Assembly: GCF_001556185.1 (NCBI RefSeq)
Contig: NZ_LSIJ01000057.1
Coordinates: 1-64,000 of the forward strand
Origin: Sphingomonas sp. CCH10-B3
Lineage (GTDB): Bacteria; Pseudomonadota; Alphaproteobacteria; Sphingomonadales; Sphingomonadaceae
Length of the DNA stretch: 64,000 bases
Reading direction: 5' to 3'
Shown: positions 44,846 through 54,206 of the stretch, piece after piece
How positions within the stretch are numbered: the stretch's first letter is position 1
Layout: every line of letters begins with the position of its first letter
The notes under the pieces: generated by a model
Told to the model about the DNA's origin: nothing
Database searches by the model: none
Seen by the model: only the letters and a program-made list of their open reading frames with translations
Program-made: the position numbers and the translations under genes

Positions 44846-45030
44846 TTTCCGGCCGCGTCTCGACGCCGGAAGCATCCGCCCTTCGTCCGGCTGGTCAGAT
44901 GAAACCGGCGGCATCGGTCGCAGCTATAGGGGCGCAGGACAACCGGCGCCGTCCTTGCGACGGCCATTGCATCCGCCTCGCTCGCGAACCGCGCCTTGCG
45001 GGCACAAACGCTTGCCCGCGTGCGCTTCAC
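44842..45030 (-). CDS. Small conserved four-Cys protein (unknown function)
   Basis: 62 residues, beginning GTG at 45030, whose bases overlap the stop of the thioesterase gene (GTGA). Arg/Cys-rich: Cys9 in SVCARKARFAS, then YSCDRCRRFHLTSR with Cys37 and Cys40, and Cys53 in GGCFRR. The C-x-x-C-x-x-F-H-L-T pattern is what I have seen in short sphingomonad proteins of unknown role; a small zinc-binding fold is plausible. The 4-base overlap and composition make it likely a real gene. Its 3' end overlaps the nitrilase gene's end by four bases. Confidence 0.75.
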   Translation of the reverse strand: MKRTRASVCARKARFASEADAMAVARTAPVVLRPYSCDRCRRFHLTSRTKGGCFRRRDAAGN

Positions 45031-45416
45031 CCGCGCACGATCAGGTAATTCATCCGCGCCGACGCGATCGGGCGGTCGCGATTGTCCTGCCACGCATGCG
45101 CCTCGACATTGGCGACGCGGTTGCCGAGCCGGGTGACGATGCCGAGCGCGCGCGTTTCTTTCTCGCGCCCGCCGCGCATAAAATCGACCGTGACGTTGAT
45201 CGGCTTGATCCGGCTGTCGCCCGCTTCGTCCAGTTCAAGCGCATGGCGGAGCGCCACAATCGCCGCGACCTCGAGCAGCCCGCCCAGCGCGCCGCCGTGC
45301 AGAAAGCCGGGACGGCCCATCACATCGGTCGAATAGGGCATCATCAGCACCGGCGGGCCGATGTCGCCTGCCTCGACCGTCAGCCCGAGCAGATCGGCAT
45401 AGGGCGGCAGCGTCAT
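45027..45416 (-). CDS. PaaI family (hotdog) thioesterase
   Basis: 129 residues with the hotdog fold of acyl-CoA thioesterases: GFLHGGALGGLLEVAAIVAL carries the HGG motif of the active helix, and later KPINVTVDFMRGG is the beta-strand dimer edge. Closes NRDRPIASARMNYLIV. Downstream partner of the next thioesterase gene, with which it overlaps by four bases. The small four-Cys gene follows in turn. Substrate unknown; PaaI-type enzymes act on aromatic or short acyl-CoA. Confidence 0.9.
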   Translation of the reverse strand: MTLPPYADLLGLTVEAGDIGPPVLMMPYSTDVMGRPGFLHGGALGGLLEVAAIVALRHALELDEAGDSRIKPINVTVDFMRGGREKETRALGIVTRLGNRVANVEAHAWQDNRDRPIASARMNYLIVRG

Positions 45417-45844
45417 GGCTGCACCTCGGTAAACATGAACGTGCCCGCGACATGCGCGAGCGGATCGCCGGGGTCGCCATCATGCGCGGTCCCCCGCACG
45501 AACGAAATCGCGCGGGTAATGCGGTAACATTCGCCGCGCCCGTAAACCGTCTTGCCGGGGGTTGCCGGGCGCAGATAATCGATCCGCAGATCGAGCGTCG
45601 CGTGCGCGCGGAATTCGCCGAGCTTCAGCCAGACGCCGAGGCTGGTCGCCATATCCATCATCGACAGGATCGGGCCCGAAGCGAGCACGCCGCTTCCTTC
45701 ATCGCCGATCAGCGCGGGATTATAGGGCAGCGCGAGTTCGGCCCAATCGGGGCCATGCGCGTGATATTCAATCCCCAGCCGCCCGGCATGCGCGCGCTTG
45801 CCGAAACTCATGAAGATGCGGGGATCGAAGGCGGGCTGGGTCAT
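45413..45844 (-). CDS. PaaI family (hotdog) thioesterase, second copy
   Basis: 143 residues, same fold as the neighbouring protein but more divergent: the active helix is GSGVLASGPILSMMDMATSLGVWL, which lacks the usual HGG and has DM in place of the acid, so its activity may be altered or different. DLRIDYLRPATPGKTVYGRGE is the strand equivalent of FMRGG. First gene of the minus-strand trio; divergent from the 51-residue peptide gene across 135 bases. The paralogue overlap is likely coupled. Confidence 0.88.
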   Translation of the reverse strand: MTQPAFDPRIFMSFGKRAHAGRLGIEYHAHGPDWAELALPYNPALIGDEGSGVLASGPILSMMDMATSLGVWLKLGEFRAHATLDLRIDYLRPATPGKTVYGRGECYRITRAISFVRGTAHDGDPGDPLAHVAGTFMFTEVQP

Positions 45845-45979
45845 CGCGTCGGCGCTCTACACGCAGCATCCCGCCGCTGCCAAGTGCGGCCAGCAAAAGC
45901 AGACCTTTCAGCGATTTAACTCTAACGCGCGAGCGCCATCGCTTAGCTGTTTCCGGGCCACGACGAAGGGGAAGCGGCG

Positions 45980-46135
45980 ATGAACATCATCGACATCGAT
46001 CAGATCGTCGACTTGAGCACGCAAGTGGCCATCAGCGGCGCGATCCGCATGGGCGAGATCGTCGGCGACGACATCTTCGAATATATCGTCGCGATCGCGG
46101 TGATCGTCTACGAAATGGATCCGCGAACACTCTGA
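45980..46135 (+). CDS. 51-residue peptide, candidate substrate of the following unknown cluster
   Basis: ATG 45980, GAAGGGGAAG upstream, stop shared with the next ATG (TGATG). The peptide is acidic in its first half (IIDIDQIVDLST, MGEIVGDDIF) and hydrophobic in the C-terminal third (EYIVAIAVIVYEMD). No Cys, no Gly-rich core, no recognised leader. It is translationally coupled to a 314-residue protein of unknown function. Two readings are possible: a precursor modified by the neighbours, or a small membrane-interacting partner. The overlap and ribosome site argue that it is translated. Confidence 0.65.
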   Translation: MNIIDIDQIVDLSTQVAISGAIRMGEIVGDDIFEYIVAIAVIVYEMDPRTL

Positions 46136-47079
46136 TGGGCCAGGCGCAGCCGCCCGCGCACAGCCGGCTGGCGGCGGCAGAAGCTGCCTCCGCATTCGCG
46201 CAGAACTGGCGGCAAAGCGCGCCTTATCGTCATGCGATGGCGCTGTTCGCCCATTGCGACGAGACAACCTCCGTTGAAGCGGTCGCCGATCGCGCCACGA
46301 GCTTGCTCGCCGATGCCGGCTGGGCGAACGACCTGATCGCACCGATGATCGACGCGCTCGCGCTCGATCCCTGGTTCGATCCGCCGCTTCGCTTCAGTCG
46401 CGATTCGCTGCGGACCGGGGGAATCCTGATCGACCATCCGGCCGTTACGATCACTGCCGCCGTACTGTCGGCAGCGACGCTGGCGACGGCGCCGCGACCG
46501 GCGACCGTGGTCGTCCCTGGCAGACTTTCCGTGGTCCGATACGAACGCGCCGGCGGGGCAACGCTGAACCTGTGGCGTGCCGAGCCAGCCGGTGCCGACT
46601 TCAGCGCGGCTGGCGCTCCGCCCTGCCGCCCGGCCGGCGCGGTGCGGCTGGTCGACGGGCTCGTCCGCCGCATCGACGGGCGTACGCATGCCCAATTGAT
46701 CGAGCATGCAACCAGCGACGTCGTCACGCTGACTGCGACGATACGGACCGACAGCGCCGCGGTGATGCGCGAATATGCCCGCAGCGACGGCGCGCTGGTC
46801 CGGGTCGCGGCGCTCGACGATGCCGCGTCGCGCACGCAGATGCTCGCCGCGCTGCTGCGTCACGCCGGTCGCATCGACGCAGCCGAAGCGTTCGACCAGG
46901 CCAGCCGCGATCCGGCCCATTTCGTACGCTGGGCGGTAATGCGCGAGTGGTTGGCGCTCGATGCCGCGACCGCACTGCCACGACTGCGAGCGATGCTGCA
47001 TGATCCGCACGCCGAGGTCCGCGACGCGGCAGCGCAGATGGTCCCGCTGGTCGAGGCCAGGCTGCAATGCCGCGAATGA
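46135..47079 (+). CDS. Unknown protein, cupin-like core with helical repeat tail (paralogue 1)
   Basis: 314 residues, not recognised as a named family. Middle region has VVVPGRLSVVRYERAGGATLNL and RIDGRTHAQLIEHATSD, with beta-strand pattern resembling a cupin; the His-x-His first motif of the next protein is absent, which suggests loss of metal binding. The C-terminal third (ALLRHAGRIDAAEAFDQASRD, FVRWAVMREWLALDAATALP, LHDPHAEVRDAAAQMVPLVE) reads as HEAT-type helical repeats. It aligns by eye along its last ~140 residues with the following 270-residue protein. Starts on the stop of the 51-residue gene. Activity unknown. Confidence 0.75.
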   Translation: MGQAQPPAHSRLAAAEAASAFAQNWRQSAPYRHAMALFAHCDETTSVEAVADRATSLLADAGWANDLIAPMIDALALDPWFDPPLRFSRDSLRTGGILIDHPAVTITAAVLSAATLATAPRPATVVVPGRLSVVRYERAGGATLNLWRAEPAGADFSAAGAPPCRPAGAVRLVDGLVRRIDGRTHAQLIEHATSDVVTLTATIRTDSAAVMREYARSDGALVRVAALDDAASRTQMLAALLRHAGRIDAAEAFDQASRDPAHFVRWAVMREWLALDAATALPRLRAMLHDPHAEVRDAAAQMVPLVEARLQCRE

Positions 47080-47879
47080 TCGACCCGGGCGATGCGCCCG
47101 CCATATCGCTTGACCAATTGACCGACACACTAGCCGCCGCGCGCGTCGATGCCCGCGACGAAGATGGCTTCGCCAGCCTTGGCCCCGTGCTCGCAGGGCT
47201 GGGGCGCAATCGCTCATTCCTTGCCGATCTCGCGATTGCCGAGCTCAAGGACCGCCACCAGCGCCAGACCGTGAGCAGCTATGGCCCGCAAGTGATGCTG
47301 CTCGCTGCCGACGCGCGTTTCGTGGTGCGCGCCAATTTCTGGCCGGCGGCGGGCGACGCCGTGATGCGCGCCAGCGGCTCTGCCGCCTTCTTCTACGGGT
47401 TCGCGCACGACCATAATTTCCCGTTCCTGACCTGCGGCTATGCCGGGCCGGGCTATCTCAGCGACGATTATGTCGTTGCTGATGACCCGGGCGAGCGACG
47501 GCCGGGTGACGCGGTCGCGCTGACGTCCGCAGGTCGCACCCGGCTCGATACGGGTCGGCTGATGCTCTACCGCGCGCACCGCGACGTGCATGTCCAGCAT
47601 CCGCCCGAGGCGCTCTCGATCTCGCTCAACATCCTGGCGCGCGATCCCGCCCAGCCGTGGCGCGATCAATATGAATATGACATCGCGTGCGGCCGGATCG
47701 TGCGCGGCATGACCACGACGGCGTCCGAAGCACTCGTCGCGCTGGCCGTGCATTTCGGCGGCGGCAACGGCATCGACCTCGCCAGCGACTTTGCCGCGCG
47801 GCATCCTTCGCCACGCATGCGTCGCACCGCTGCTGCGGCGCTTGCCTCGGTCGACACCGTCCGCGCGCACGCAGCATGA
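47067..47879 (+). CDS. Unknown protein, His-rich cupin-like core with helical tail (paralogue 2)
   Basis: 270 residues, no named family recognised. Residues about 100-190 have beta strands and a likely metal site: HDHNF at 114-118, then YRAHRDVHVQHPPEALSISL with His171, His175 and His178. H-x-H followed by a later His is what a cupin metal centre uses. The last 70 residues (ALVALAVHFGGGNGIDLASD, HPSPRMRRTAAAALASVD) repeat the HEAT-like pattern of the preceding protein, so the two are tandem paralogues. The gene overlaps its neighbour by 13 bases (or four if ATG 47076 is used). A metal-dependent oxygenase or peptide-modifying role is inference. Confidence 0.75.
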   Translation: MPRMIDPGDAPAISLDQLTDTLAAARVDARDEDGFASLGPVLAGLGRNRSFLADLAIAELKDRHQRQTVSSYGPQVMLLAADARFVVRANFWPAAGDAVMRASGSAAFFYGFAHDHNFPFLTCGYAGPGYLSDDYVVADDPGERRPGDAVALTSAGRTRLDTGRLMLYRAHRDVHVQHPPEALSISLNILARDPAQPWRDQYEYDIACGRIVRGMTTTASEALVALAVHFGGGNGIDLASDFAARHPSPRMRRTAAAALASVDTVRAHAA

Positions 47880-47936
47880 TCCGAAACGGAGCCAGTCGCG
47901 CCACGGTCGCGCGGCGGGCGCGCTAGACCGGTTGCC

Positions 47937-48587
47937 ATGACGCGGGCGTGGCTCTCGATCGATCGTCCCGGGCTTGCCGCAGCGCTGGCTGATCGTGGGA
48001 TTGCGACTGACGCAGCACCGGCCACAGCTGCGCTGCTGATCGCCGCGCAGGGCGAACGCCCCGTCAAGGCAACGCTGGCGTCGCTCCGGGTGCGGTCTCC
48101 GGCACCGGTGATGCTGATCGTTGCCGATGACGAGCTTGCCGTCATCGGCGCAATCGATTCGGGCGCCGACGATGCGGTGCCGCTGACCGCGAGCGACCGG
48201 CTGATCGCGGTGCGCGCCGCCGCGCTTGTCCGCCGTGCAAAGCAAAGCCTGATCACGCTCGGCGACCTGACGATCGATACGATCGAGCGACGTGTATGGC
48301 GCGGCGGCCGCCCGATCGAGCTGTTGCCGCGCGAATATCGGCTGCTGCTCGAACTCGCGCTGCATCCGGGCGAGCCGATCAGCCGCGCGGTGCTGCTCGA
48401 GCGGGTTTGCGGGGTCGGCTTCGATCCCGGCACCAATGTGCTCGACGTCCATGTCTCGCGGCTGCGTGCCAAGCTCGATCGCGGCTTTGCGGTGCCGTTG
48501 CTGCGCACCGAAAAGCGGATCGGCTACCGGCTCGCCGTGCCGCCGTTCGACCAGTTCGCGATTGAAGCCGCCTCCGCAGCCGGTTAG
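47937..48587 (+). CDS. Winged-helix response-regulator-like protein with degenerate receiver
   Basis: 216 residues. The C-terminal 95 residues are an intact OmpR-type winged helix (GDLTIDTIERRVWRGGRPIE, LLPREYRLLLELALHPGEPI, VLDVHVSRLRAKLDRG, RTEKRIGYRLAVPP). The first 110 residues have receiver length but no acidic triad: the strand that should carry the phospho-acceptor Asp reads AALLIAAQGERP, and DSGADDAVPLTASDR replaces the switch-Lys region. It is probably not phosphorylated and may respond by protein contact or expression level. Lies 57 bases after the tandem unknown proteins and is the likely regulator of that cluster. Confidence 0.85.
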   Translation: MTRAWLSIDRPGLAAALADRGIATDAAPATAALLIAAQGERPVKATLASLRVRSPAPVMLIVADDELAVIGAIDSGADDAVPLTASDRLIAVRAAALVRRAKQSLITLGDLTIDTIERRVWRGGRPIELLPREYRLLLELALHPGEPISRAVLLERVCGVGFDPGTNVLDVHVSRLRAKLDRGFAVPLLRTEKRIGYRLAVPPFDQFAIEAASAAG

Positions 48588-48619: not shown

Positions 48620-50161
48620 ATGCACCCCAGCGTGCACGCGGTGGCATCACCCGCCAAGGCCGCGCTGATCGTCGCCGAAACGGGCGAAACGATCAGCTAT
48701 GCGCAGCTCGATGCGGCATCGAACCGCGCCGCGCAGCTTTTCCGCGCCAGCGGGCTCGGTATCGGCGACACGGTCGCGCTGTTCCTCGACAACATTCCCG
48801 AATTTTTCGGGCTGGTGTGGGGCGCGCAGCGCGCGGGGCTGTTCTACGTCTGCATCCCGGCCAAGCTGACCGCGCCCGAAGTCGACTACATCGTCCGCGA
48901 CAGCGGTGCGCGGCTGATCATTGCCTCCGTCGCGACGCACGGCGTGGCGGCCGCGCTCGCAGAGGCGCTGCCCGATCATGCGCGCTTCATGATCGGCGGC
49001 ACCGCCCCCGGCTGGGCGAGCTGGGAAGCGGCAGCGGCGGCTATGCCCGCAACGCCGATCGCCGACGAGCGTGCGGGCGTCGACATGCTCTATTCCTCCG
49101 GCACCACCGGGCGGCCCAAGGGCGTGCGAGTGGCGCTGCCCGAGGACCCCGGCATTGCCGCTGCCAATGTGCTGGTGATGCTCGCGCAGGCGCTCTACCG
49201 GTTCGGCCCCGAGAGCATCTACCTGTCGCCCGCGCCGCTTTATCACGCCGCGCCGCTGCGCTGGTCGATGACGGTGATGCGACTCGGCGGCACCGTCGTG
49301 ATGATGCAGCATTTCGATCCCGAGGCGGCGCTGGCGGCGATCGAGCGCTACCGTGTCAACGCCAGCCAATGGGTGCCGACGCATTTCGTGCGGATGCTGA
49401 AGCTCGATGACGCCACTCGCGCCCGCTACGACCTTTCGAGCCTGAAAGTCGCGATCCACGCTGCCGCGCCCTGCCCGATCCCGGTCAAGGAAGCGATGAT
49501 CGCGTGGTGGGGGCCGGTGCTGTACGAATATTATGCCGGTTCCGAAGGCAACGGCCTGACCACGATCGATTCGGCGCAGTGGCTCAGCCACAAGGGATCG
49601 GTCGGCAAGGCCGCCTATGGCCAGCTCCACATCTGTGACGAGGCGGGCAACGAGCTCGCCGTGGGCGAGGAAGGGCTGGTCTATTTCGGCGGCGGCGGCG
49701 TGTTCGAATATCACAACGACCCCGAAAAGACCGCCGAGGCGAAGAACGCGCATGGCTGGACGACGCTCGGCGACATCGGGCGGATCGACGACGAGGGCTA
49801 TCTCTATCTCACCGACCGCAAGAGCTTCATGATCATCTCGGGCGGGGTGAACATCTATCCGCAGGAAATCGAGAACCGGCTGATCACCCATCCGCGCGTT
49901 GCCGATGTCGCCGTCATCGGCGGCCCCTGCCCCGACATGGGCGAGCGCGTGATCGCGGTGGTGCAGCCGGTCGACATGGCAGAGGCAGGCGAGGCGCTCG
50001 CCGCCGAACTCACCGCGTGGTGCCGCGCCGAATTGTCGGGCGTAAAGACCCCACGCCAGATCGATTTCGCCGCCGAATTGCCGCGCGCGCCGACGGGCAA
50101 GCTCTACAAGCGATTGTTGCGCGATCGATACTGGGGCAATAGCGAAAGCCGGATCGTTTGA
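48620..50161 (+). CDS. Acyl-CoA synthetase (AMP-binding protein)
   Basis: 513 residues, ANL superfamily. Activates a carboxylic acid through an acyl-adenylate to the CoA thioester. P-loop-like MLYSSGTTGRPKGVRV, the A5 block LYEYYAGSEGNGLTTID, A7/A8 TLGDIGRIDDEGYLYLTDRKSFMIISGG, and A10 PRAPTGKLYKRLL with the catalytic Lys are all in place. Fits the fatty/aromatic acyl-CoA ligase (Fad/Caiz) group. Strong GGGAGAGGA before the ATG. It is the first gene of a run of acyl-CoA functions (hydratase, thioesterase, SDR, thiolase). Confidence 0.94.
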   Translation: MHPSVHAVASPAKAALIVAETGETISYAQLDAASNRAAQLFRASGLGIGDTVALFLDNIPEFFGLVWGAQRAGLFYVCIPAKLTAPEVDYIVRDSGARLIIASVATHGVAAALAEALPDHARFMIGGTAPGWASWEAAAAAMPATPIADERAGVDMLYSSGTTGRPKGVRVALPEDPGIAAANVLVMLAQALYRFGPESIYLSPAPLYHAAPLRWSMTVMRLGGTVVMMQHFDPEAALAAIERYRVNASQWVPTHFVRMLKLDDATRARYDLSSLKVAIHAAAPCPIPVKEAMIAWWGPVLYEYYAGSEGNGLTTIDSAQWLSHKGSVGKAAYGQLHICDEAGNELAVGEEGLVYFGGGGVFEYHNDPEKTAEAKNAHGWTTLGDIGRIDDEGYLYLTDRKSFMIISGGVNIYPQEIENRLITHPRVADVAVIGGPCPDMGERVIAVVQPVDMAEAGEALAAELTAWCRAELSGVKTPRQIDFAAELPRAPTGKLYKRLLRDRYWGNSESRIV

Positions 50162-50188
50162 TACCGCTGACAATGCATTCGCACCGTT

Positions 50189-50257
50189 CGTCCTTGCGAG
50201 CGTAGCGAAGCAATCCAGAGCGGCGGACTGGATTGCTTCGCTGCGCTCGCAAGGACG
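50189..50257. repeat. Long palindromic repeat, family B, copy 2
   Basis: Left arm 50189-50218 (gcgagcgtagcgaagcaatc inside) and right arm 50228-50257 are near-perfect complements over a 9-base loop. Same family as 6193-6270. Fills the gap between the ligase and the hydratase. Confidence 0.85.
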
Positions 50258-50281
50258 GCATGCTCAATCGAAAGGCACCTG

Positions 50282-51064
50282 ATGGAAAACCGCATCCGCA
50301 TTACCGTTTCGGATCATGTCGCCGATGTGAAGCTGACCCGCGGCGACAAGATGAATGCGCTCGACCCCGAGATGTTCAACCAGATCGCCAATGCGATCGA
50401 CCAGATCGCGCATATGCCGCACGTCCGCTGCGTCGTGCTGTCGGGCGAGGGCCGCGCCTTCTGTGCCGGGCTCGACATGGCGAGCATGGCGTCGGGCGGC
50501 TCGGGCACCTCGCTGGCCGAGCGCACCCACGGCCTCGCCAACCTGCCGCAACATGCCGCCTGGGGCTGGCGCACGCTGGCGGTGCCGGTGATCGCCGCCG
50601 TCCACGGCGTCGCCTTTGGCGGTGGTTTCCAGATCATGTCGGGCGCCGACATCCGCATCGCCGCCCCGCACACCCGCTTTTCGATCCGCGAAGTCCATTG
50701 GGGCCTCGTCCCCGACATGGCGGGGATTGCGCTGTGGCGCGGCCTCGCGCGCGACGATGTGCTCCGCGAGCTGACCTATACCGCGCGCGAATTCGACGCC
50801 GACGAAGCGCTCGGCTTCGGCTTCGTCACCCGCATCGCCGCCGATCCCTATACCGAGGCGCATGCGCTCGCGACGCAGATCGCGGCGCGCAATCCGCAGG
50901 CCGTGCAGGGATCGAAGAAGCTGTTCAATCTCCAGCCCGACGGTGACAGCGCGTCGATCCTGCAGGCCGAAAGCGACGTGCAGCTCGGCGTCATCCGCCA
51001 GCCCAATCAGGTCGAGGCGGTGATGGCCAACATGCAGAAGCGCGCGGCGGTGTTCGTCGACTGA
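50282..51064 (+). CDS. Crotonase/enoyl-CoA hydratase family protein
   Basis: 260 residues. Crotonase fold, hydrating 2-enoyl-CoA or a relative. The oxyanion hole is formed by CAGLDMASM and VAFGGGFQIMSGADIRIAAP; the Glu of the second block is replaced by Gln/Met surroundings, but the acidic residue in REVHWGLVPDMAGIALWRGL is present. Directly follows the AMP ligase and the palindromic repeat. Ends with a helix MANMQKRAAVFVD that is usual for the trimer. No frame problem. Confidence 0.93.
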   Translation: MENRIRITVSDHVADVKLTRGDKMNALDPEMFNQIANAIDQIAHMPHVRCVVLSGEGRAFCAGLDMASMASGGSGTSLAERTHGLANLPQHAAWGWRTLAVPVIAAVHGVAFGGGFQIMSGADIRIAAPHTRFSIREVHWGLVPDMAGIALWRGLARDDVLRELTYTAREFDADEALGFGFVTRIAADPYTEAHALATQIAARNPQAVQGSKKLFNLQPDGDSASILQAESDVQLGVIRQPNQVEAVMANMQKRAAVFVD

Positions 51065-51074
51065 TCGCGCGCGA

Positions 51075-51494
51075 TCAGGGCTGCACGAGCATCCAGCGTT
51101 CGAGCATCGCGCGGAATTCGGGCTCCATCGCCGCGCCGCCCGCGACCACGGTGACGTCGCAGGTCGCGAGCGGCACGTCGTTCTGCAGCGCGAGGCCCAG
51201 CACCTGCCAGCTGCGCGTGCCGAGCCTCCCGACGCCGTGCGCCATCAGCACATCAGCGGGGAAATGCCCTTCGCCGAGATAGTTGATCTCGACATTGGCG
51301 ACGAGCCCGCGCGCCCGCCCCGGCGCACTGCCCAGCATATGCCCCAGAAACCGCACCCGCGCGCTTTCGAACAGCGCCGCCCAGGCGACGTTATTGATAT
51401 GCCCGAGTACGTCGAGGTCCTGAAACCGCGTCTGGATCGTCTCGCGGTGCGGATAGGCGTCGGGGGACAACCGCCAGGGGTCGGGGCGCGGCAT
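51075..51494 (-). CDS. Acyl-CoA thioesterase, 4-hydroxybenzoyl-CoA thioesterase-like hotdog
   Basis: 139 residues. Hotdog fold of the YbgC/FadM type: IQTRFQDLDVLGHINNVAWAALFE contains the catalytic Asp of D-x-x-G-H-x-N, a strong match. VEINYLGEGHFPADVLMAHG is the strand pair. Hydrolyses an acyl-CoA, substrate undetermined. Convergent with the hydratase (10-base gap) and divergent in orientation from the acyl genes, so co-regulation is not obvious. Precedes the DUF1993 gene on the same strand by seven bases. Confidence 0.91.
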   Translation of the reverse strand: MPRPDPWRLSPDAYPHRETIQTRFQDLDVLGHINNVAWAALFESARVRFLGHMLGSAPGRARGLVANVEINYLGEGHFPADVLMAHGVGRLGTRSWQVLGLALQNDVPLATCDVTVVAGGAAMEPEFRAMLERWMLVQP

Positions 51495-51501
51495 CGCTGC
51501 C

Positions 51502-52011
51502 TCAGAGCCCCGCCGCGAACAGGTCGAGCTTGCCGAGCGGCACGCCCTTCATCCGCAGGATACCGTAGGCGGTCGACAGGTGGAAGGCGATGTTGGTCGT
51601 CGCGAACACGCTGAGCCAATGGCCGGCGGGGAGCGACGGCGTGATCGTGTCGGTGAGCTGGACGGTGAGCGGCACATCGTCGCGGCCGGCAAATTGCTCG
51701 GGCGTCAGCGTTGCGAGAAAGGCGAGCGCATCGGCAAAGGCCGTATGGAAGCCCGCCGCGTCGCGATCGGCGGTGATCGCTTCCGGCACCGGCACATCGG
51801 CGACGCGCGCGGGCCAGCTACGCGCAAAATTGGCGACGACCATCAGCTGGAAGCCGAGCGGATGCATGTCGTCGTGCAGCCGCCAGCCGAGCATCTCAGC
51901 CTCGCCGATGCCACTGGCGGCGGCAAAGGCGCTGCCCTTGGTCAGCAGATGGTCGGCGGTCACGACATGGCGCCGGTAGAGATCGACGAAAGTGAAGAGC
52001 GAGACGGTCAT
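51502..52011 (-). CDS. DUF1993 domain-containing protein
   Basis: 169 residues, DUF1993 (DinB-like helical bundle). MTVSLFTFVDLYRRHVVTAD and, further on, RLHDDMHPLGFQLMVVANFA, with the conserved D-x-H, are characteristic; NIAFHLSTAYGILRMKGVPL is the final family motif with its His. The trio of His/Asp could bind a metal as in the DinB superfamily, but no function is established. Transcribed before the small thioesterase. Start ATG 52011 is the first residue of the first helix. Confidence 0.92.
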   Translation of the reverse strand: MTVSLFTFVDLYRRHVVTADHLLTKGSAFAAASGIGEAEMLGWRLHDDMHPLGFQLMVVANFARSWPARVADVPVPEAITADRDAAGFHTAFADALAFLATLTPEQFAGRDDVPLTVQLTDTITPSLPAGHWLSVFATTNIAFHLSTAYGILRMKGVPLGKLDLFAAGL

Positions 52012-52038
52012 GGGAAGGTCCTGCGATGAAGGAAGCGC

Positions 52039-52061
52039 GACCCGGGAACGAATCCCGGGTC
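52039..52061. other. GC-rich hairpin in the SDR-DUF1993 gap
   Basis: gacccggga at 52039-52047 pairs with tcccgggtc near 52053-52061 to give a 9-bp stem with a short loop. It lies in a 117-base non-coding gap between the SDR stop (52129) and the DUF1993 start. A terminator role is possible but there is no T run. Confidence 0.4.
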
Positions 52062-52128
52062 GTCAGACGGCGCGGACGCCGCTGGCCGCGCTGGCGCGAG
52101 TCCGGACGCGGGACGCGCCCGACCGCGC

Positions 52129-52911
52129 TCAGCGTGGCGCCATCCGGATCGCTCCGTCCAGTCGCACATCCTCGCCGTTGAAATAGCTGTTCTCGACCAT
52201 CGTCAGCGCGAGATGGGCATATTCGGGCGGATTGCCGAGCCGCTTGGGGAATGGCACCGATGCCGCCAGCGCGTCCTTCACATTCTGCGGGGCGCCGCGC
52301 ATCAGCGGGGTTTCGAAAATGCCCGGCAGGATCGTGTTGATGCGAATGCCCTCGCCCATCAGGTCGCGCGCGATCGGGAGGGTCATGCCGACCACACCAC
52401 CCTTCGATGCCGAATAGGCCGCCTGGCCGATCTGGCCGTCTTCGGCGGCGACCGACGCAGTCATCACCATCGCGCCGCGCTCGCCATCTTCCATCGGCTC
52501 GAGCGTCAGCATCCCCGCCGCCGATTTGGCGACGCAGCGGAAAGTGCCGACCAGGTTGATCTGGATGAGCCAGTCGAACGCGGCGAGCGGGAAATGCTTG
52601 ATGCTGCCATCTTCCTTCGACCGGCTGGCGGTCTTGACCGCATTGCCCGTGCCCGCGCAGCAGATCAGCACGCGCTCCTGCCCATGCGCCGCGCGCGCCT
52701 TGGCAAAGCCGGCATCGACGCTTTCGTCGCTGGTGACGTTCACTTCGCAGAAGATGCCGCCGATGTCGGCGGCGACCGCTTCGCCTTTTTCCGCCTGCAA
52801 GTCGAAGATCGCGACCTTGACGCCCTTCGCCGCGAGCGCGCGCGCGGTGGCTTCGCCGAGGCCGGATGCGCCGCCGGTCACGACAGCGGCAACGGTTGAG
52901 TCGAGTTTCAT
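52129..52911 (-). CDS. SDR family NAD-dependent oxidoreductase, 3-hydroxyacyl-CoA dehydrogenase type
   Basis: 260 residues. NAD-binding TGGASGLGEATARAL, NNAG-equivalent CCAGTGNAV, catalytic Ser followed by the Tyr-x-x-x-Lys in AAYSASKGG, and PFPKRLGNPPEYAHLALTMV near the end, which is the HSD17B10/type-2 3-hydroxyacyl-CoA dehydrogenase arrangement. Oxidises a 3-hydroxyacyl-CoA in beta-oxidation; substrate preference not known. Precedes DUF1993 by a 117-base gap. Together with the thiolase upstream it gives the last two steps of the cycle. Confidence 0.93.
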   Translation of the reverse strand: MKLDSTVAAVVTGGASGLGEATARALAAKGVKVAIFDLQAEKGEAVAADIGGIFCEVNVTSDESVDAGFAKARAAHGQERVLICCAGTGNAVKTASRSKEDGSIKHFPLAAFDWLIQINLVGTFRCVAKSAAGMLTLEPMEDGERGAMVMTASVAAEDGQIGQAAYSASKGGVVGMTLPIARDLMGEGIRINTILPGIFETPLMRGAPQNVKDALAASVPFPKRLGNPPEYAHLALTMVENSYFNGEDVRLDGAIRMAPR

Positions 52912-52930
52912 TGGAGCATCTCCAGCAAGT

Positions 52931-53026
52931 CCCCCTCCCGCTTGCGGGAGGGGTTAGGGGTGGGGAAGTCGGAGGCAGCGCTCGATATCGCGCCCACCCC
53001 GGCCCCTCCCGCAAGCGGGAGGGGAG
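52931..53026. repeat. GC-rich palindromic repeat, family C, copy 2
   Basis: Same unit as 30460-30562: left hairpin cctcccgcttgcgggagg at about 52933-52950 and right hairpin cctcccgcaagcgggagg at about 53005-53022. It occupies the gap between the thiolase stop and the SDR start. Confidence 0.85.
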
Positions 53027-53033
53027 AAAGCGG

Positions 53034-54206
<1,173 letters not shown>

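Follow-up and report, generated by a model that had tools for sequence, protein, structure and literature searches.

A 51-residue peptide gene, two overlapping genes for larger proteins (B and C) and a regulator gene (D) lie together in the 64,000-nucleotide stretch of Sphingomonas DNA analysed here (the window), and we give about an even chance to their forming a RiPP-like peptide-modifying operon, with a catalytically dead B, an intact C and D as regulator (Table 1). This reading explains the locus best because the peptide is conserved, an intact and a dead paralogue occur together, the genes overlap, and exporters stand beside them in some other lineages. As in RiPP loci, a short precursor-like gene is kept with the candidate modifying enzymes. 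The gene set is conserved and uncharacterised, which suggests that any peptide-modifying chemistry it carries out is new.

Table 1. Features of the peptide-B-C-D locus, in positions of the window
Feature	Coordinates	Strand	Basis
Putative precursor peptide gene, 51 residues	45980..46135	+	ORF call and conserved small-ORF family
B, 314 residues, thiol-dioxygenase-fold with HEAT-like tail, putative pseudo-enzyme partner	46135..47079	+	No conserved barrel His
C, 270 residues, thiol-dioxygenase-fold with HEAT-like tail	47067..47879	+	Putative three-His metal site (H114, H116, H175)
D, OmpR-type winged-helix regulator, degenerate receiver	47937..48587	+	Trans_reg_C 6.7e-19
TTAC-N6-(T/G)TAA-type element TTTCAGCGATTTAAC, with one mismatch; may serve the peptide operon as operator or promoter element	45906..45920	+	
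4HBT thioesterase, neighbour outside the claimed system	45413..45844	-	4HBT 3e-11

The first-pass annotation described four tightly packed plus-strand genes, and the coordinates of the peptide, B, C and D proved correct on re-check. One base is common to the peptide stop and the B start (TGATG). For the overlap of B and C, which had been given as 13 bases or 4, we favour 13, with C starting at 47067, because most C homologues begin MPRLIDPG; the start at 47076 (ATGA) is less likely. The 4HBT thioesterase gene is divergent to the peptide gene and the upstream region is common to both. An ORF similar to this thioesterase is found in 60 of 80 other loci.

Protein searches returned at least 1294 homologues of C and at least 122 of B. 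The loci used for comparison were picked by C as the best 80 of 208 confirmed stretches, and all are titled Sphingomonadales except one (L025, titled Bacillus). Each of these best 80 of 208 has B immediately 5' of C, counting a B split over frames in L022, a B cut by the contig end in L068 and a C with an in-frame stop in L079. Within the family of Sphingomonas echinoides, to which the genome of L011 belongs, 88 of 249 sampled genomes carry C, a few of these being fragments; in the phylum of the L011 genome C was found in 15 of 398, the identical 15 with two profiles. Two other origins were considered and rejected. At E 1e-5, matches came from 2 of 72,556 plasmid records and from none of 50,697 phage records, which does not suit a plasmid or phage gene, and PADLOC gave no match for B, C, D or a related pair from Alteromonas that would point to a defence system.

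The proposal had been made to depend on conservation of the 51-residue ORF, and this ORF is conserved above chance. With a peptide profile built from 14 seeds, a small ORF ahead of B is matched in 85 of 97 B rows, or 71 of 83 non-seed rows, with one locus (L029) counted twice among the B rows. The 12 B rows that gave no profile match include a duplicate fragment (L022) and a contig end (L068). Inspection by eye found a candidate ORF, outside the limits or threshold of the script, in L023, L076, L077, L107, L108, L109 and the second copies of L060 and L072; before B in L045 and L058 no candidate peptide ORF was seen by eye either. Pairwise dN/dS for the peptide ranged from 0.03 to 0.32 in 11 chosen pairs, indicating purifying selection. 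Taking one peptide per locus, T-x-[VIAL]-x3-[GST] occurs in 76 of 82 and L-x-T-x-[VIL] in 72 of 82, and the hydrophobic stretch that follows this motif region is kept within clades and variable between them. Near the C-terminus, 60 of the 82 carry [ILVA]-[YF]-[ED]. No modifiable residue is universal among the 82: Cys is present in 18 (19 when 85 rows are counted) and absent from 64, and Tyr occurs within the last 25 residues in 65.

Peptide distances correlated with those of C across 59 loci when the flanking thioesterase was controlled for (partial r 0.60, 0 of 500 shuffles), and more weakly with those of B under the same control (partial r 0.31, 1 of 500 shuffles); shared descent is not fully removed from these values, because thioesterase distances also follow those of C once the peptide is controlled for (partial r 0.42). 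That the peptide evolves slowly is a hint of a house-keeping product, not of a weapon.

In Pfam and NCBIfam, B and C had no more than weak HEAT-type or chance-level matches, and the peptide had no match above the cut-off. With PADLOC included, no characterised family emerged, in agreement with the earlier statement that no named family matched. The predicted models of B and C match thiol dioxygenases best, which sharpens the earlier description of the pair from cupin-like to thiol-dioxygenase-like and supports B and C as cupin-fold paralogues. The paralogy, already proposed from the window, was borne out by larger profiles, giving 79.9 across the final 147 columns and, once 12 diverse C rows were used, 86.7 across 255; it was not visible by BLASTP (E 0.27) or in a comparison of narrow profiles (probability 1.2).

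Five histidines of C had been named as a cluster suited to a cupin metal centre. Three of them, H114, H116 and H175, are invariant in 52 of 52 C rows each and are also present in 12 of 12 diverse rows, while H171 is His in 24 of 52 and H178 in 8 of 52. We consider the invariant three to be putative metal ligands, as assigned by weak profile alignment to thiol dioxygenases. The contrast drawn in the first-pass annotation between an inactive-looking B and an intact C holds: the complete three-His set is present in C and not in B, where no barrel column has His in more than 15 of 53 rows.

The HxH, H and Ser-His(-Tyr) motif of thiol dioxygenases, and the Gln63 that marks their 'Gln-type' members, are set out in PMC8050391. 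A weak profile alignment places HDH, DxH and S-x-N of C opposite HxH, H and Ser-His. The outer-sphere Ser-His-Tyr motif is incomplete in C by a weak colinear alignment, in which S186 is kept (50 of 52), Asn188 (52 of 52) replaces His and Leu/Met/Val190 replaces Tyr. Gln75 is found in 52 of 52 C rows and missing in 3 of 12 diverse members, and it falls within one residue of the Gln63 position as read from the weak profile alignment. Because the C profile matches thiol dioxygenases weakly (probability 3.8) and PF05995 (CDO_I) matches 0 of 52 C-family members up to E 1, in a search whose filters drop most weak matches, the link to thiol dioxygenases rests on the predicted folds.

The regulator was correctly described as having a receiver that lacks a phospho-acceptor. 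Asp is present in 0 of 65 D relatives at the acceptor column, which is a gap in 46 of 65; the alignment is gappy and includes one canonical reference. By this residue D does not qualify as a canonical OmpR-type response regulator. Conserved co-occurrence of all four genes had been named as support; D lies directly 3' of C in 65 of 81 loci and does not adjoin in the other 16. Upstream of the peptide gene, TTTCAGCGATTTAAC is the sole match with at most one mismatch in the 64-kb window, where 0.07 is expected. Of 60 loci with D, 57 have an element of this type before the peptide, as do 11 of 22 loci lacking D. Scores of at least 7 of 8 were reached in 57 of 60 rows with D, 4 of 17 rows without D (loci up to L080) and 7 of 7 rows from further loci, and in 67 of 1680 controls shuffled in two-base blocks. 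The bare pattern is not specific genome-wide, because a reversed control is as frequent; a stricter pattern was found 4 times, in 3 of 7 genomes, against 6 times for the reversed control, and in a second genome-wide scan pattern and control were similarly frequent.

Binding of the element by D is plausible and confounded, since D, the thioesterase neighbours and the element follow identical lineages. A palindromic version, TTACATCAGTGTAA (or its complement), precedes a thiolase-like gene in 3 of 5 chosen regions. The palindromes lie in three Sphingomonas genomes, at 2306 in L142, 2308 in L143 and 2276 in L145, with the thiolase-like gene Pfam-checked in L143. This palindrome is perhaps the site of a fatty-acid-degradation regulator that resembles the pre-peptide element, and its place before a thiolase-like gene may point to another regulator, one linked to fatty acids. 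In L060, L061, L064, L065, L067, L069, L072, L075 and L078 the peptide operon has a homologue of the L065 sigma-factor gene upstream. As these nine loci have no adjoining D, the regulator type may have been exchanged.

No exporter was found among the 12 neighbours of the window operon that were run through Pfam. These comprise three thioesterases, an AMP-ligase, an enoyl-CoA hydratase, a short-chain dehydrogenase, a thiolase, a DUF1993 protein, a nitrilase-type hydrolase, an Era-like GTPase, RNase III and a signal peptidase I, the last being the only peptidase and a housekeeping enzyme to judge from its place beside RNase III and the Era-like GTPase. Dedicated leader-removal and export genes of a RiPP locus are not among these 12; exporters do occur in L107, in L060, L065, L067 and L072, and in L140. 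Acyl-CoA genes (4HBT thioesterases, AMP-ligase, enoyl-CoA hydratase, short-chain dehydrogenase and thiolase) surround the window operon at 45027-45844 and 48620-53996, and a similar order of acyl-CoA genes was seen by eye in Sphingomonas cavernae (L066).

L060, L065, L067 and L072 each carry two peptide-B-C sets, the second peptides of L060 and L072 being seen by eye, together with an ABC exporter, HlyD, a MacB-type ATPase and the upstream sigma-factor gene; these genes were assigned by Pfam in L065 and by BLASTP in the rest. L065 has an additional small gene that gave no Pfam match. In L107 B and C are preceded by a 52-residue ORF, and a C39-peptidase ABC exporter and HlyD are divergent from this ORF. 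A plasmid of Alteromonas (L140) encodes HlyD, a MacB ATPase and permease, two small ORFs, B, C and an ABC-2 pair, with B and C scoring 92 and 376 bits against the profiles. The second small ORF of L140 resembles the peptide family (0 of 200 shuffles); the first one and the peptides of L107 and L108 were assigned by position only, their family likeness not being significant (17, 18 and 21 of 200 shuffles, respectively, reach the score). Shorter B-C pairs occur on a Vibrio plasmid (L141) and in genome G133 (L106), where C matches its profile at 75 and 137 bits; the B-like protein of L106 matches weakly (12.0 bits) and that of Vibrio not significantly (2.1 bits). Genes for a Tn3 transposase, a recombinase and restriction-modification lie near the Vibrio pair, and after the pair comes an annotated ORF of 59 residues. 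As for C39 export, no support was found for a general partnership with C: a C39 peptidase is encoded in 33 of 88 C-bearing family genomes versus 44 of 161 without C (one-sided p 0.065), and 55 of the 88 C-bearing genomes have no C39 match at all.

These data can be combined in a mechanism. The 51-residue peptide would be made just before B and C from the overlapping genes, and its conserved N-terminal half (IDI..IV.L.TQVA..GA) would be the recognition part. The catalytically dead B and its intact paralogue C, with an Fe(II)/three-His site, would act as a heterodimer in which C would activate O2 for the oxidation of a residue in the hydrophobic C-terminal half of the peptide (FEYIVAIAVIVYE..). 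D would control the operon, possibly via the TTAC-N6-(T/G)TAA element. Iron, the O2 chemistry, the heterodimer, translational coupling, the peptide as substrate and the binding of the element by D are all steps that we infer. The exporters beside the genes in some other lineages agree with a peptide-modifying locus. Several observations count against it: the lack of an exporter among the 12 tested window neighbours, the weak C39 association, the weak profile likeness of C to thiol dioxygenases, the small ORFs of L107, L108 and L140 (its first) that are not significantly like the family, the want of a universal modifiable residue, the loci in which D does not adjoin, the presence of the element in half of the loci without D, and low dN/dS along the whole peptide, which is unlike a fast-evolving bacteriocin. 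We hold with considerable reserve the wider idea that the locus represents a new RiPP class fixed in many Sphingomonadaceae chromosomes. In this class an iron-dependent thiol-dioxygenase-fold heterodimer of one active and one dead subunit would turn a slowly evolving peptide into a conserved signal or cofactor by oxidising a residue other than cysteine, and other Proteobacteria would have related versions that are mobile and bear exporters.

The purifying selection on the peptide could also be that of a small structural or regulatory subunit of the B-C enzyme, acting as activator, inhibitor or membrane-facing anchor while a small molecule is the true substrate. The gene overlap would suit a stoichiometric subunit, as would the finding of neither exporter nor dedicated protease among the tested neighbours. 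The recurrence of exporters beside the genes in some other lineages and the strong differences between clades in the peptide C-termini are harder to reconcile with a subunit, and we rate this account as rather improbable.

It is more improbable still that C is an ordinary Gln-type thiol dioxygenase acting on a small, mercaptopropionate-like thiol, with B as its dead paralogue and the peptide as an accessory. A thiol dioxygenase is the best structural match of the C model and the position of Gln75 is suggestive, but this Gln is missing from some diverse members and both the His and the Tyr of Ser-His-Tyr appear to be replaced. To our knowledge, moreover, ordinary thiol dioxygenases have neither an obligate dead paralogue nor a HEAT tail. 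The frequent position of a dead-receiver D directly 3' of C would also suit an oxygen or redox sensing module, in which C reports O2 through the peptide and the non-phosphorylatable D reads the result and sets transcription. There is a precedent in the thiol dioxygenase ADO, described in PMC8503633 as acting on the N-terminal Cys of proteins in oxygen homeostasis. The 16 loci in which D is not adjoining and the 64 peptides that lack Cys speak against such a module, to which we assign the smallest likelihood of the accounts considered. The scarcity of Cys likewise argues against plain thiol oxidation of the peptide in the RiPP-like reading.

Compared with known systems, the locus is closest in predicted fold to thiol dioxygenases (PF05995 cysteine dioxygenase, 3-mercaptopropionate dioxygenase, mercaptosuccinate dioxygenase, ADO/PCO), with which C shares the three aligned His, the Ser of Ser-His-Tyr and a Gln close to the 'Gln-type' position. 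It differs from them in the replaced motif His and Tyr, the failure of CDO_I to match, the HEAT-like tail, the adjoining dead paralogue and the peptide gene in front. In gene content it resembles MNIO RiPP clusters such as pbs (PMC12257519), which combine a small precursor-like gene with a catalytic and a non-catalytic protein in one operon. The same paper describes a cupin-like hydroxylase, and an enzyme with a partner protein, acting on a RiPP, and PMC9426513 places cupin-4 genes beside NHLP-type precursors. Transporters in some lineages of the present gene set are a further likeness to iron-oxygenase RiPP clusters; unlike them, B and C are thiol-dioxygenase-like cupins paralogous to each other, and no radical SAM enzyme or dedicated protease was found among the tested window neighbours. 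In methanobactin biosynthesis, the RiPP iron oxygenase MbnB works with a partner protein, MbnC.

The C39-peptidase ABC exporter and HlyD near the 52-residue ORF of L107 recall class II microcins and other C39-exported peptides, and the leader of that ORF presumably looks microcin-like. The window operon differs in having no such exporter nearby and a peptide with no canonical double-glycine leader; we rejected LSTQVAISGA of the window peptide as such a leader, which would be speculation at most. PqqA and MftA are conserved cofactor precursor peptides, and the present peptide is likewise short, slowly evolving and inherited with its enzymes, with [ILVA]-[YF]-[ED] near the C-terminus of most members, but no radical SAM enzyme was found among the tested neighbours of its operon. 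The idea of a lasso peptide was dropped as no lasso cyclase was found among the Pfam-run neighbours. The accessible part of a Sphingomonas cluster survey (PMC9716278) lists lasso, RRE, PKS and terpene clusters; neither cupin nor dioxygenase occurs there as a word. We found no account of the peptide-B-C-D gene set in open-licence papers.

If the peptide is the substrate, the locus adds a fold, a three-His thiol-dioxygenase-like cupin with an adjoining dead paralogue, to the chemistry of ribosomal-peptide modification, and this chemistry would be other than thiol oxidation, since most peptides lack Cys. Peptide, B and C form a small three-gene unit that is readily tested in E. coli. C occurs in 88 of the 249 sampled family genomes, yet many public records say 'transposase', the NCBI product name of many Sphingomonadales C homologues; we reject this name, as no transposase family matched and the predicted fold is thiol-dioxygenase-like. 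The locus titled Bacillus sp. 2B10 (L025) is of typical Sphingomonas type, and probably comes from a mislabelled or contaminated assembly.
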